The notes under the pieces: model-generated
Told to the model about the DNA's origin: nothing
The model's database searches: none
The model's input: the letters and a program-made list of their open reading frames with translations, nothing else
Assembly: GCA_963728475.1 (NCBI GenBank)
Contig: CAVSKL010000001.1
Location: 1,302,001 to 1,366,000, forward strand
From: CAVSKL01 sp963728475 [NCBI: Candidatus Eiseniibacteriota bacterium]
Lineage (GTDB): Bacteria > Eisenbacteria > RBG-16-71-46 > JABDJR01
DNA length: 64,000 bases
Direction: 5' to 3'
Part shown: positions 30,768-49,885 of the stretch, one piece after another
Numbering within the stretch: position 1 is the first letter of the stretch
Layout of the letters: every line of letters begins with the position of its first letter
Made by a program: the position numbers and the translations under genes

Positions 30768-30889
30768 CCGCTCCCGCCGCCTCCCCGAATCCCTTGCCCG
30801 CGGCCGGGTTGGAGCCTCCCCCCCGTCCGCGGAAAATCGGACCCCGCGGATCTATTTACCAATTCCAAATTCCGTAACCCCCGATCCGT

Positions 30890-30917
30890 TTGTTCCTTAC
30901 AGGGTTGGGCGTACACT
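30890..30917 (+). promoter_or_regulatory. Candidate promoter for nifJ
   Basis: TTGTTC (30890-30895) and TACACT (30912-30917) with a 16-base spacer, in an AT-richer stretch about 55 bases upstream of the nifJ start. The match to sigma-70 elements is moderate. Confidence 0.4.
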
Positions 30918-30971
30918 CGCCGCTCACGACGCATACCGGCGGGTGGTCCGTCCGGACAGGAGGCGGAAGAC

Positions 30972-34589
<3,618 letters not shown>

Positions 34590-44927: not shown

Positions 44928-46304
44928 TCAGTCCAGCCCGGCCAGGCTGGCCAGAAGCTCCTCGTTGGTCTTGTGCCGCTGCATGAGCTTCAGGATGCCG
45001 AGCATGGCCTGGTCCGCGGGGTAGGAAGCGGCCAGGCGGCGGAGCTTGTGGAGCCGGCTCACCTGGTCGTCCGGATAGAGCTTCTCCTCTTTCCGGGTCC
45101 CGCTTTTCCCGACGTCCACCGAGGGGAAGATCCGCTTCTCGAAGAGATCCCGGGAGAGCACGAGCTCGGTGTTCCCGGTCCCCTTGAACTCCTGGAAAAT
45201 AACCTCGTCCATCCGGGATCCGGTCTCGACCAGGGCGGTGCCGAGGATGGTGAGGCTCCCCCCGTCCTCGATCTTCCGCGCCGCGCCGAAGATCTGGCGC
45301 GGCGCCAGCATGGTGGCCGCGTCCAGGCCGCCGGACAGCGTCCGCCCCGAGTTGCCCTGGACCGTGTTGTAGGCGCGGGCGAGCCGGGTGATGGAGTCGA
45401 GGAGCAGCACCACGTCGCCCCCCTCGAGCACCGGCGGCACGATGGTGTTGACGCACTCCTCGGTGATCTGGATGTGGTCCCGTGCGGACATGTCGCTGGA
45501 GGCGGCGTAGACGGTGGCGTGGGTGCTTCGCCGGAAGTGGGTGACCTCCTCCGGCCGCTCGTCCACGAGCAGCGCGAACACCTGCACCTCGGGGTGGTTG
45601 ATGTGAAGCGCCTCGGCGGTCTGGATGAGAAGCGTGGTCTTGCCCGCCTTGGGGGGCGACACGATCAGCGCGCGCTGGCCGCGCCCGATGGGGGCGATGA
45701 GATCCATGACCCGCATCGACACCTGGTCGGGAGTGGTCTCGAGCTGGTAACGCTGGTGGGGATCGATGGAGATCTGCTGCTGGAGGAGCTTGAGGACCTC
45801 AAGCCCCTTGGGGCGCTCCGGACCGGGGCGGTTGCCCTGGTTCATGGGACGCCGGCGGCGCTCCTGGGGAAGGCGCCGGTTGCCCTGGTTCTCGGCGGCC
45901 TGCATACGGGAGGCGGTGGCGTCGCGGATGCCTTCCCGTGCCGGCCCCCCCGGCCGGCGGCGGCGCCTTGGCGCGTCGCCTCCGCGGCCGTTCTGACCTC
46001 CTTCGCGGCGCGTCCCGTCCGAGGCCTCGGGGCCGGAGCGCCGGCGCCGTCGGACGCGCTGCTGCTGCTGTCCTTCGCCGGACCCCTCGGCGTGCGGTGC
46101 GCGCTCTCCTTCTCCCCCTCCGGGACGCCGGTCGCGGGGCCGGTGCACGGGGCGGCCGGTGCGTGCGGACTCCGAGGATTCCGGCGCGCCCTCTTCGTTC
46201 GCCGTCCGCGGGGGATCGTTGGTCTCAGCGTCCGGGCGGACGCGGCGGCGGCGCAGGCGGCGGGGCCGCCGCGACTCTCTGTCTTCGAACATCGTCTCAC
46301 TCAT
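44928..46304 (-). CDS. Rho-like ATPase lacking the usual RNA-binding (OB/cold-shock) domain
   Basis: A 458-residue protein whose C-terminal about 270 residues are clearly Rho: [20 protein letters not shown], Walker [10 protein letters not shown] near residue 216, [40 protein letters not shown], the Q-loop region [20 protein letters not shown] and the R-loop region [20 protein letters not shown]. Normal Rho has before this an OB/cold-shock domain with a GFGFLR-type strand. Here residues 1 to about 155 are disordered and Arg-rich ([27 protein letters not shown]), then [20 protein letters not shown]. The start MSETMFED at 46304 has AAAGGA very close; ATG 46292 is an alternative. It may terminate transcription using the basic tail, or be a specialised paralogue. 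Confidence 0.85.
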
Positions 46305-46913
46305 CCTTTGTGGTTTTGAACGGGCCGCTCCGGAATCCCGGAAGCCCCCTCGGGGGGAGGACCCGGGCGCGACGGCCGGACCCTCGAAAGGGCCGCCGTG
46401 GCCGGAGGCGGGCTCGGCGCCCGACTCCGCCGGATGAACCGTGCCTTTGCGCAATGAATCGGTCGTACCGCAATCGGTCGTTCGCAGCGGGCTCGATAGC
46501 CCCATCCGAGGCCTCTCCATCGAGAGGCGCCCTCTCCAATACCCGCCCCGCACCACGTCTCGGAAACAGCTTCGGTGCGAGCGCCGGTCCGGGGGCGCGC
46601 CTGGCGGGCCCGGACCGTCTACCGGCTAAGATTGGTGCTGAAATCGGTGATCTTGTCGTTCCCTGACGCCGGCGACCCTCATGTCGAGCGCCGGCTCAAA
46701 GCGATTCACAAATGCCGGGAATCGAGATTAGGAGCCGGTTCGCGGGCTCCTGGGGGCCGGGTGTCGCCGAGCCTCTTCCGAGGGCCTGCCTCTTCCGGGA
46801 ACCTTGCCGGGGGGCCTCGAGGGGCCTCACGCCGGGAGTCGGTGACCGGGGGCGTCCGGTATCCGGGGCGACCGCTTCCAAGCCCTCCTTATCGGCGGCC
46901 GCCGGCGACCCCC
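46305..46913. other. About 610 bases without a convincing gene
   Basis: Lies upstream of the Rho-like gene and downstream of the CMD-like gene, both on the reverse strand. Open frames exist on both strands but have compositionally biased Arg/Gly/Pro translations and no ribosome sites. It may contain a long leader of the Rho-like gene. No tRNA or clear hairpin terminator was found. Confidence 0.4.
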
Positions 46914-47264
46914 TTAGGATGCACTTTCCGGGGCGGTTTCGTCCAGTAATTCGTGAGCTCTCCGGAGATGAGGGATCACGATCGACCCCCCCACCACCAG
47001 GCCCACGTCGAAGACCTCCATCATCTCGCTCCGGGTCACCCCCTCTTCCAGGGAGCGAAGGACATGGTAGGAGATGCAGTCGTCGCACCTCAGGACCAGC
47101 GACGCCACCAGCCCCAGCATTTCCTTGGTCTTGGCGTCGAGCGCCCCGGGACGATAGCACTGGCTGTCGAGGTTGAAAAATCGCTTGGTAACCAGGGTCC
47201 CCTCTTCGAGGATCCTGTCGTTCATACGCTCGCGGTAGGCCCGAAATTCCTCGGCTTTGCTCAC
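46914..47264 (-). CDS. Carboxymuconolactone-decarboxylase/AhpD-like protein
   Basis: A 116-residue helical protein with a GTG start (47264) behind GGAG. It contains DAKTKEMLGLVASLVLRCDD followed by CISYHVLRSLEEGVTRSEMM, the CxxC-xxxH signature of the CMD/AhpD family, where the cysteine pair acts as a thiol redox centre. The C terminus (DVGLVVGGSIVIPHLRRAHE) is typical. It starts 52 bases after the typA stop and is probably in that transcript. The family can work with peroxiredoxins, and a Sec-type peroxiredoxin lies 2 kb upstream on the same strand; any functional link is inference. Confidence 0.88.
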   Translation of the reverse strand: MSKAEEFRAYRERMNDRILEEGTLVTKRFFNLDSQCYRPGALDAKTKEMLGLVASLVLRCDDCISYHVLRSLEEGVTRSEMMEVFDVGLVVGGSIVIPHLRRAHELLDETAPESAS

Positions 47265-47316: not shown

Positions 47317-49143
47317 TCAGGCCGTTTCCCGGCGGCGCACCGGGCGCTCCGAGGCCCGGAGCACGCGCTTGCGCAGACGGAGATTCTTGGGCGTCACCTC
47401 CAGCACCTCGTCCTCGGCGATGAACTCCAGGCATTGCTCGAGCGACATGACCCGCGGCGGCACCAGCTTGGTGGTGATCTCCGAGTTCGAGGCCCGCATG
47501 TTGGTCAACTTCTTTTCCTTGACGATGTTGACGTTGATGTCGTCCTCGCGGGAGTTCTCGCCCACGATCATCCCCTCGTAGACCGGGGTGGTGGGGGCGA
47601 GGAAGATCTCGCCCCGGGACTGCAGGTGCTCCACCGCGTACGCGGTCACCGTGCCCGGCCGGTCCGCGACCAGGGCCCCGGTGGTGCGGTGCGGGATCTC
47701 GCCCGCCCACGGCGCGAAGCCCACGAAGAGATGGTTCATGATCCCGGTGCCGCGGGTGTCGGTCAAGAACTCGCTGCGATAGCCGATGAGCCCCCGGGAG
47801 GGGATTTCGAACTCCATGCGCACCCGGCCGGTGCCGTGGTTCACCATCTTGGTCATCCGGCCCCGGCGCATGTTGAGCTTCTGGGTGACCGCCCCCACGT
47901 ACTCCTCGGGGGCGTCCACCACCACGTTCTCCATGGGTTCGTGGACCTTGCCATCCACCTCGTGGGTGATGACCTGGGGCTTGCCGACCCCCATCTCGTA
48001 GCCTTCGCGGCGCATGGTCTCGATGGTGATGGCGAGCTGGAGCTCGCCCCGTCCCGAAACCTTGAACGAGTCGGGGGTCTCGCCCGGCTCCATCCGGAGC
48101 GCCACGTTCCGCTCGACCTCGCGCTCCAGGCGGTCCCGGAGATGCCGGGAGGTGAGGTAATTCCCGTCCCGCCCGCTGAACGGCGAGTCGTTGACCAGGA
48201 ACATCATGGAAATGGTGGGCTCGTCCACGGTGATGGGGGGGAGCGGCATCGGGCGCTCGGGGTCGGAGATGGTCTCGCCGATGTCGATGTCGTCGAGCCC
48301 GGCCAGCGCGATCAGGTCCCCCACCGAGGCCTGGGGGATCTCGGAGCGCTTGAGCCCCTCGAACCCGAAGAGCTTGGTGATCTGGCCGCGGATCACGGTG
48401 CCGTCCCGGCGGCACACCGAGACCGTCTGGCGGGCGGCGATCCGCCCCTGCACCACCCGCCCGAACGCCACCCGTCCCAGGTAGTCGTCGTAGTCGTAGC
48501 TGGCGATCAGCACCTGGAGCGGTTCCTCGTCGTCGCCCGCCGGCGGGGGGATCACGTCGATGATGGTCTTGAACAGCGGCTCCAGGTTCTCCTGGGGCTC
48601 CTCCAGGCTCATCGCGCAGGTGCCGTCCCGGGCCACCGCGTAGACCACCGGGAAGTCGATCTGGTGCTCGTCGGCGTCGAGATCGATGAACAGGTCGTAG
48701 ATCTCGTCCAGCACCTCGGCCGGGCGGGCGTCCTTGCGGTCGATCTTGTTCACGACCACGATGGCGGGGAGCTTCAGCTCCAGCGCCTTGTGGAGCACGA
48801 ACCGGGTCTGGGGAAGCGGCCCCTCCGAGGCGTCGACCAGGAGCAGGACGCCGTCCACCAGCTTCAGGATCCGTTCCACCTCGCCCCCGAAGTCGGCGTG
48901 GCCGGGGGTATCGAGGATGTTGACCCGAACCCCTCCGTGGATGACGGAGGTGTTCTTGGCCATGATGGTGATCCCCTTCTCCCGCTCGAGGTCGATGGAG
49001 TCCATCACCCGCTCCGCGACCTCCTGGTTCTCGCGAAAGACGCCGCTCTGCCAGAGCATGGCGTCGACCAGGGTGGTCTTGCCGTGGTCGACGTGGGCCA
49101 CGATGGCGATGTTGCGAAGGTCGCTGCGCACGAGCGATGTCAT
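47317..49143 (-). CDS. typA: Translational GTPase TypA/BipA
   Basis: A 608-residue ribosome-associated GTPase of normal length. G motifs: [19 protein letters not shown] (G1), [20 protein letters not shown] (G3), [20 protein letters not shown] (G4). The EF-G-like domains II, III and V follow, and the family-specific C-terminal domain is visible (TYPA-type [40 protein letters not shown]). TypA aids 50S assembly and stress or cold growth. Start ATG 49143 with CCAGGT upstream. The CMD-like gene follows on the same strand. Confidence 0.97.
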
Positions 49144-49365: not shown

Positions 49366-49803
49366 TCACAGCAGGGCCAGCACCTCGGCGGGGTGGGTCC
49401 TGACGTCCACCTTGGCGAAGGCGTGGGCGATGCGGCCGTCGGGGCCGATCACGTAGGTGATACGATCGGCGTATCTTTGATCCGGGGCTGCGGCGGCCTG
49501 GTAGGCGATGCCGATCTCACGATCGGGATCGGACAAGAGGAGGAAGGGAAAATCGAACTTCTCGGCGAACGCGCGGTTCTTCTCCACGGTGTCGAAGCTC
49601 ACCCCGAGGACCACCGCGTTCTTCTTCTCGAAATCCTGGATTCCGGCCCGGAACCCTTGACCTTCGATGGTTCACCCGGGGGTGTCGGCCTTGGGGTAGA
49701 ACCACAGGATCACGTTCTTCCCGGCGAGGTCCGCGAGCCGGACGGTCTTGCCGTCGTGGGCCCGGGCGGTGAAGCCCGGCGCCGGCGTTCCGACCTGGAG
49801 CAT
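49366..49803 (-). CDS. Peroxiredoxin (BCP/PrxQ type) with in-frame TGA at the peroxidatic residue: probable selenoprotein
   Basis: ATG 49803 has a strong AAGGAG site. The frame runs through MLQVGTPAPGFTARAHDGKT and VILWFYPKADTPG to a TGA at 49674-49672, then continues in the same frame as TIEGQGFRAGIQDFEKKNAV, VLGVSFDTVEKNRAFAEKFD, FPFLLLSDPDREIGIAYQA and RITYVIGPDGRIAHAFAKVD to a true stop at 49366. The whole is 145 residues, normal for BCP. Codon 44 is exactly where relatives have the catalytic Cys (DTPGCT), so TGA is best read as selenocysteine. The second cysteine five residues on is absent (Gln). A hairpin fitting bacterial SECIS rules follows. Role: reduction of H2O2 and organic peroxides. 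Read conventionally it would be split into two false fragments. Confidence 0.85.
49638..49656 (-). promoter_or_regulatory. Candidate bSECIS element after the TGA codon
   Basis: In the transcript, GGGUUCC pairs with GGAAUCC (7 bp, one G-U) around a GGGCC loop. The loop's first G is 23 nucleotides after the UGA, inside the 16-37 window expected for bacterial SECIS elements, which also need a G at the start of the loop. The stem lies within the coding sequence, as usual in bacteria. Confidence 0.65.
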
Positions 49804-49885
49804 GATGGTCTCCTTTCCATAGGCGCCCGGTTCTCCCGGCTTCGGACGATTCCGGACCTCGGGACGGCGCTCGTCGCAGCATAGC

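Follow-up and report, generated by a model that had tools for sequence, protein, structure and literature searches.

Peroxiredoxin gene with an in-frame TGA codon

The window, i.e., the whole stretch of 64,000 nucleotides that was analysed, almost certainly contains a selenoprotein gene belonging to the already described Bcp-type peroxiredoxin (Prx) family (COG1225, TxxU), in which UGA at codon 44 is read as selenocysteine (Sec). The evidence comprised the codon itself, the conservation of TGA among relatives, a downstream hairpin with covariation across the family, and the Sec machinery in the genomes of relatives. The first-pass annotation had proposed a probable selenoprotein, and this was supported by the conserved TGA, by the hairpin found only with TGA, and by the association with selB and tRNA-Sec in relatives. 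In the window's organism, codon 44 would be decoded as Sec by SelB and Sec-tRNA, the hairpin 23 nt downstream would direct the insertion at this UGA, and UGA at codon 146 would terminate the protein. The features of the locus are collected in Table 1.

Table 1 Features of the peroxiredoxin locus in the window
Feature	Position	Strand	Basis
Rho-type factor; L002 likewise has one downstream of its TGA Prx	44928..46556	-	Sequence comparison
CMD-family protein (PF02627) with CxxCxxxH, two genes downstream of Prx	46914..47264	-	Pfam; no NCBIfam match
TypA/BipA GTPase gene, downstream of Prx	47317..49143	-	NCBIfam TIGR01394 over cut-off
Bcp/PrxQ-like peroxiredoxin gene with Sec (145 aa and terminal TGA)	49366..49803	-	ORF reading, PF00578, relatives
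Extended outer stem around the hairpin	49628..49667	-	Minimum-energy fold
SECIS-like apical hairpin, 8-bp stem GGGUUCCG/CGGAAUCC (one G-U), loop GGC	49638..49656	-	Fold, family covariation
In-frame TGA, codon 44, peroxidatic position, most likely Sec	49672..49674	-	Frame, relatives, structure alignments
Shine-Dalgarno-like AAAGGAG, 6 nt before ATG	49810..49816	-	Read by eye

The gene starts with ATG at 49803-49801 and ends with TGA at 49368-49366, and the only stop between them is the TGA at 49674-49672. The claim that the frame is open on either side of a single TGA was thus borne out by the ORF reading (49803-49366). The ORF listing splits the gene into two pieces at this codon, and it is the kind of gene that ordinary gene calling would cut there.

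When read through the TGA, the protein matched the Pfam family AhpC-TSA (PF00578) over residues 4-127 (E 1.4e-32, 112.7 bits, cut-off 26) as well as 16 different sequences of solved structure (E 1e-10 or better), some of them Bcp proteins, and is thereby of the AhpC-TSA/Bcp type. The alignments with three solved Bcp-type chains (3drn, 5enu, and 5iph) were ungapped around codon 44, in agreement with the earlier claim that homology continues without a gap across the TGA. The window protein shares the family and the DTPG active-site region with these chains; where it has UGA, they have Cys in two cases and Ser in the 3drn chain. We take this alignment column to be the peroxidatic residue of Bcp-type chains. 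The Sec position lies within PxxxTxxU, with UGA in place of the C of TxxC and with Cys homologues, and the proposed location of the TGA at the peroxidatic position of BCP/PrxQ was confirmed in this sense. Three NCBIfam models gave scores below their cut-offs, namely PRK09437 thioredoxin-dependent thiol peroxidase (NF006960; 99.7 bits, cut-off 140), PrxQ (NF053650, PerredPrxQDein; 96.3 bits, cut-off 260), and PrxU (NF040737; 42.4 bits, cut-off 270). The last presumably represents PrxU, the Sec peroxiredoxin of Eubacterium acidaminophilum, which is likewise a Prx with Sec.

TGA and Cys forms among relatives

Of the 226 relatives recovered in the genome scan, the analyses used the best 80, with codon 44 counted ungapped from the start of each match. 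Among these best 80 of 226, codon 44 was TGA in 35, TGC in 35, and TGT in 10, so that the alignment with Sec and Cys homologues, suggested as a check in the first-pass annotation, comprised 35 TGA and 45 Cys forms. In the tree output, the TGA relatives fell under seven phylum labels (Acidobacteriota 14, Myxococcota 7, Binatota 5, Pseudomonadota 4, Eisenbacteria 2, Planctomycetota 2, and Krumholzibacteriota 1), the relatives being mostly metagenome bins whose labels may be wrong. A single clade labelled Nitrospinota or Nitrospirota accounted for 38 of the 45 Cys forms. P37 and T41 were kept in all 36 TGA genes (window included), and only one of these genes had a further in-frame stop (L078, at codon 144 of the 145 compared ungapped).

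These data bear on the alternative that the gene encodes an ordinary Cys peroxiredoxin interrupted by a nonsense mutation or a sequencing error, i.e., a pseudogene or an artefact. A single wrong base would be compatible with the window alone, and the window hairpin alone was not significant, but the same TGA was present in 35 of the best 80 of the 226 relatives, from many assemblies, protein similarity ran on both sides of it, and hairpins meeting the bacterial rule were confined to the TGA forms. Recurrence of the same error across the family is not credible because the identity of the window Prx to the other rows of the tree did not exceed 63%. For the family as a whole, this alternative is refuted by the recurrence of TGA, and for the window gene it is very unlikely.

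The Prx tree was built from 145 columns, with 28 of 84 forks open and the base of the ingroup unresolved. The nearest Prx was that of L002 (genome G002, titled Candidatus Eisenbacteria; support 99/93); the other Eisenbacteria-titled TGA locus, L066, was separate from the window. The Sec label required six changes on the tree compared with 27.9 for shuffled labels, the starred branches forcing only two. Two Cys forms in Acidobacteria (L043, 8001-8435, and L063, 4382-4816) were nested in a clade with 10 Sec forms (99/93), and because of this nesting they are likely Sec-to-Cys reversions, which suggests a loss of Sec in that clade. The 36 Sec and 45 Cys genes form a natural comparison set for studying when gains and losses of Sec occur.

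The UGA was followed by A in 36 of 36 TGA genes because the next codon is ACN; this context was rejected as a signal, as the codon was A-led also in 44 of the 45 Cys genes. One locus with TGA elsewhere in a Cys-type gene (L110) was left aside. Among viral contigs, 11 stretches fitted a pattern, and none encoded a Prx relative. The Prx of L075, from a record titled Klebsiella pneumoniae, grouped with Binatia and Proteobacteria-titled bins, and the title is probably wrong.

SECIS-like hairpin

The rule for bacterial SECIS elements given in PMC13188914 comprises a loop of 3-9 nt and a stem of 4-16 bp (Fig. 2 legend), G in the first two loop positions, a distance of 16-37 nt from UGA, and a minimum free energy of -7.5 kcal/mol or lower. 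The window hairpin had a loop of 3 nt (GGC), a stem of 8 bp, a UGA-to-loop distance of 23 nt, and an energy of -9.8 kcal/mol, all within this rule, as had been proposed. Of the earlier description, a 7-bp stem with a G-led loop 23 nt after UGA, the loop and the distance held, while the stem length was corrected to 8 bp. The UGA with the following 57 nt folded at -18.6 kcal/mol, a value that 9 of 200 shuffles equalled or bettered (z -1.79), and 61 of 1000 synonymous reshuffles were as stable as the hairpin alone, which was therefore not significant at 5%. By itself, the window hairpin is only suggestive, and the family data carry the case for a SECIS element.

Across the family, the rule was scored for hairpins with contiguous stems. 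Because the TGA and Cys sets differ in base composition, codons for synonymous reshuffling were drawn from the 12 genes most similar in third-position G+C. The rule held in 26 of the 36 TGA genes (2.5 expected after reshuffling) and in none of the 45 Cys genes (0.3 expected); of the 10 TGA genes missing the strict rule, L002 did so narrowly (-7.4). In a loosened search (loops up to 14 nt, any energy), 25 of 36 TGA genes and 1 of 45 Cys genes fell below 5% of 200 reshuffles.

In the window, L002, L024, and eight further genes (n = 11), the 25th nt after UGA marked the centre of the helix, and in 24 TGA genes it was the 19th; L052 fitted neither position. Standard pairs made up 89.8% of the cells in the window's group and 89.4% in the group of 24, and none of 500 shuffles was as high in either, although assigning the genes to groups by the better-fitting helix tends to raise this percentage. 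Cells changed on both sides numbered 7 (n = 11) and 10 (n = 24), again with 0 of 500 shuffles as high in each group, and the covariation score exceeded those of all 500 shuffles in both. Two weaker measures were less distinctive: the number of pairs with a change on both sides was matched by 7 (n = 11) and 19 (n = 24) of 500 shuffles, and in the window's group 499 of 500 shuffles matched the number of further pair types, compared with 2 of 500 in the other. One pair per group was broken in over half of the rows (columns 25/31 in 8 of 11 and columns 12/32 in 12 of 23). Sliding the partner by 1-3 columns reduced pairing to 54% or less in the TGA groups. The 45 Cys genes paired at 50.8% and 47.9% at the two helix positions, which is no higher than in shuffled data; with the partner slid, one version reached 67.2%.

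The SECIS-like helix thus occupies one of two positions, separated by two codons (6 nt), depending on the lineage (e.g., L001:8130-8174 compared with window 49674-49630). Remnants of the element were sought in two Cys forms and rejected: in L049, 8 of 9 positions paired, but 148 of 1000 reshuffles did as well, which is not significant, and in L043, 7 of 9 positions paired, but no hairpin met the rule.

Selenocysteine machinery

Matches to selB over the cut-off were present in 32 of 35 TGA genomes and in 5 of the 15 Cys genomes tested (Fisher p 6e-5), a contrast that is partly one of phyla, with selB in 0 of 8 Cys genomes labelled Nitrospinota or Nitrospirota and in 5 of 7 others. The TGA genomes without it were G002, G016, and G025. 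A tRNA-Sec of at least 60 bits was detected in 28 of 35 TGA and 4 of 15 Cys genomes (p 8e-4); this line was drawn because second matches in genomes already having one, inferred to be tRNA-Ser, reach approximately 53 bits. At the Rfam cut-off of 47 bits, the counts were 31 of 35 and 5 of 15. A search for selD covered 15 genomes, picked mainly because other markers were lacking there, and the gene exceeded the cut-off in 7 of 8 TGA and 1 of 7 Cys genomes. In the phylum of G002 (47 genomes), selA was over the cut-off in 40, selB in 37, and tRNA-Sec in 39; all three were found in 30 genomes, two in 11, one in 4, and none in 2. From these relatives, we infer that the window's organism inserts Sec.

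A selD gene with one in-frame TGA occurred in G002, G001, G016, G020, G023, and G042, and SelD is probably a selenoprotein there. G042, the genome of L080, combines this selD with a tRNA-Sec (62.3 bits) and Cys in its Prx; its selB gave only a partial match below the cut-off (model positions 196-578).

Recent decay of the Sec gene, with the machinery lost from an organism whose lineage once decoded Sec, would be consistent with the state of two holders of the TGA gene. In G002, neither selA nor selB was found in the search, though a tRNA-Sec (66.8 bits) and the TGA-containing selD (368.8 bits; G002:C224:874-1803) were present, and in G025 the search for selA, selB, selD, and tRNA-Sec found none. 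However, the G025 assembly looks incomplete because the selB model found only three matches in it, the lowest number among 50 genomes, and its top match had the poorest E-value of the set (2.0e-18), while 47 of the 50 gave 5 to 12. Moreover, the window helix is intact, with 8 pairs and a G-led loop, and the frame has no other stop, which makes decay extremely unlikely. Reassignment of TGA genome-wide, or its reading as a different amino acid (e.g., Trp or Cys), would also leave the Prx frame open, but it is hardly conceivable, as TGA ends the Prx gene itself and 16 of 35 long ORFs (at least 200 aa, picked by codon periodicity, some perhaps in the wrong frame), in which 188 Trp are encoded by TGG; TGA is therefore not reassigned wholesale.

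Within the 64-kb window, no tRNA and no Rfam match were found. None of the 38 ORFs scanned with NCBIfam (E 1e-20; eight ORFs at 1e-10) encoded a sel protein; they are part of 44 ORFs picked by periodicity, and the remaining six, viewed otherwise, included no sel protein. Codon periodicity flagged 13 in-frame TGA sites in the window, that of Prx included, and the remaining 12 were assessed by visual inspection alone.

Cysteine-free chain and recycling

The window Prx has no cysteine in its whole chain. The same was observed in only 3 of the 35 TGA relatives (L002, L052, and L056), and each of the 45 Cys forms carries one or more further Cys. Across the 36 Sec forms, Cys occurred at position 49 in 9, at 91 in 25, and at 104 in 19 (ungapped numbering). 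As the chain lacks Cys, no selenenylsulfide is possible within it, and the protein would be a one-selenol enzyme that needs an outside reductant. In the predicted cycle, the selenolate in the PxxxTxxU site would reduce peroxide and be converted to selenenic acid, which would be reduced in turn by an outside thiol or a thioredoxin-like donor. Judging from the sequence, the window Prx should be recycled in this way. The CMD-family protein (46914-47264), presumably AhpD-like given its CxxCxxxH, is a possible but unproven electron donor, and its link with Prx is not conserved in L002.

More tentatively, and with less confidence than doubt, the enzyme may be a thiol-free, strictly one-selenol Prx, in which Sec has been kept while all Cys, any resolving one included, are absent, and whose turnover would rely entirely on an external donor, perhaps the CMD-family protein with CxxC; the SECIS element would have shifted by two codons (6 nt) from one lineage to another with the Sec codon fixed. 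A natural Prx with Sec and no Cys would allow selenol chemistry to be studied without a resolving thiol.

Comparison with known Sec peroxiredoxins

Prx assigned to COG1225 with a TXXU motif was already included in a 2005 list, with 43 Sargasso Sea sequences (PMC1088965, Tables 1 and 3), and COG1225 (Bcp) with TxxU appears in a 2022 family table (PMC9312934). The earlier statement that Sec-containing peroxiredoxins exist in some bacteria agrees with both entries, and because of them the window gene is a further case of a known family. Other entries are 12 Sec-Prx and five Cys-to-Sec events (PMC1794560), 253 TxxU Prx in ocean samples (PMC2398784), and the Sec peroxiredoxin of E. acidaminophilum (Biol Chem 2001, cited in PMC13188914 and PMC9312934). 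The window member is like the Sec-Prx tabulated in PMC1088965 and PMC9312934 in class, in Sec at TxxU, and in a SECIS element directly downstream; it is itself Eisenbacteria-like and Cys-free. Our literature search retrieved no paper pairing Eisenbacteria with selenocysteine or selenoprotein, and the gene extends the range of a catalogued selenoprotein to an Eisenbacteria-like organism.

Genomic context

The order and strand of a memo-like gene, Prx, and rho are common to L002 and the window; no CMD-type ORF was found between Prx and rho in L002. In the phylum of G002, the only one searched, the best match of the window TypA was 68% identical, with 48% for the partial copy in G002 and 52% for that in G025, and the Rho-type protein was 68% identical to that of G002 (next best, 61%). 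Together with the Prx tree, this makes it likely, though short of proof, that the window's organism belongs to this phylum or close to it. A conserved operon partner was sought within 4 kb of Prx, where the widest recurring family was present in 7 loci (5 TGA), some loci being short. A search for the CMD gene in the best 80 loci gave no match at the limits used, and scanning the intergenic stretches for promoters and terminators yielded no useful result. Elsewhere in the window, a pyruvate:ferredoxin oxidoreductase is encoded at 30768-34586 (NCBIfam TIGR02176, 1819.8 bits), which hints at anaerobic or facultative metabolism.
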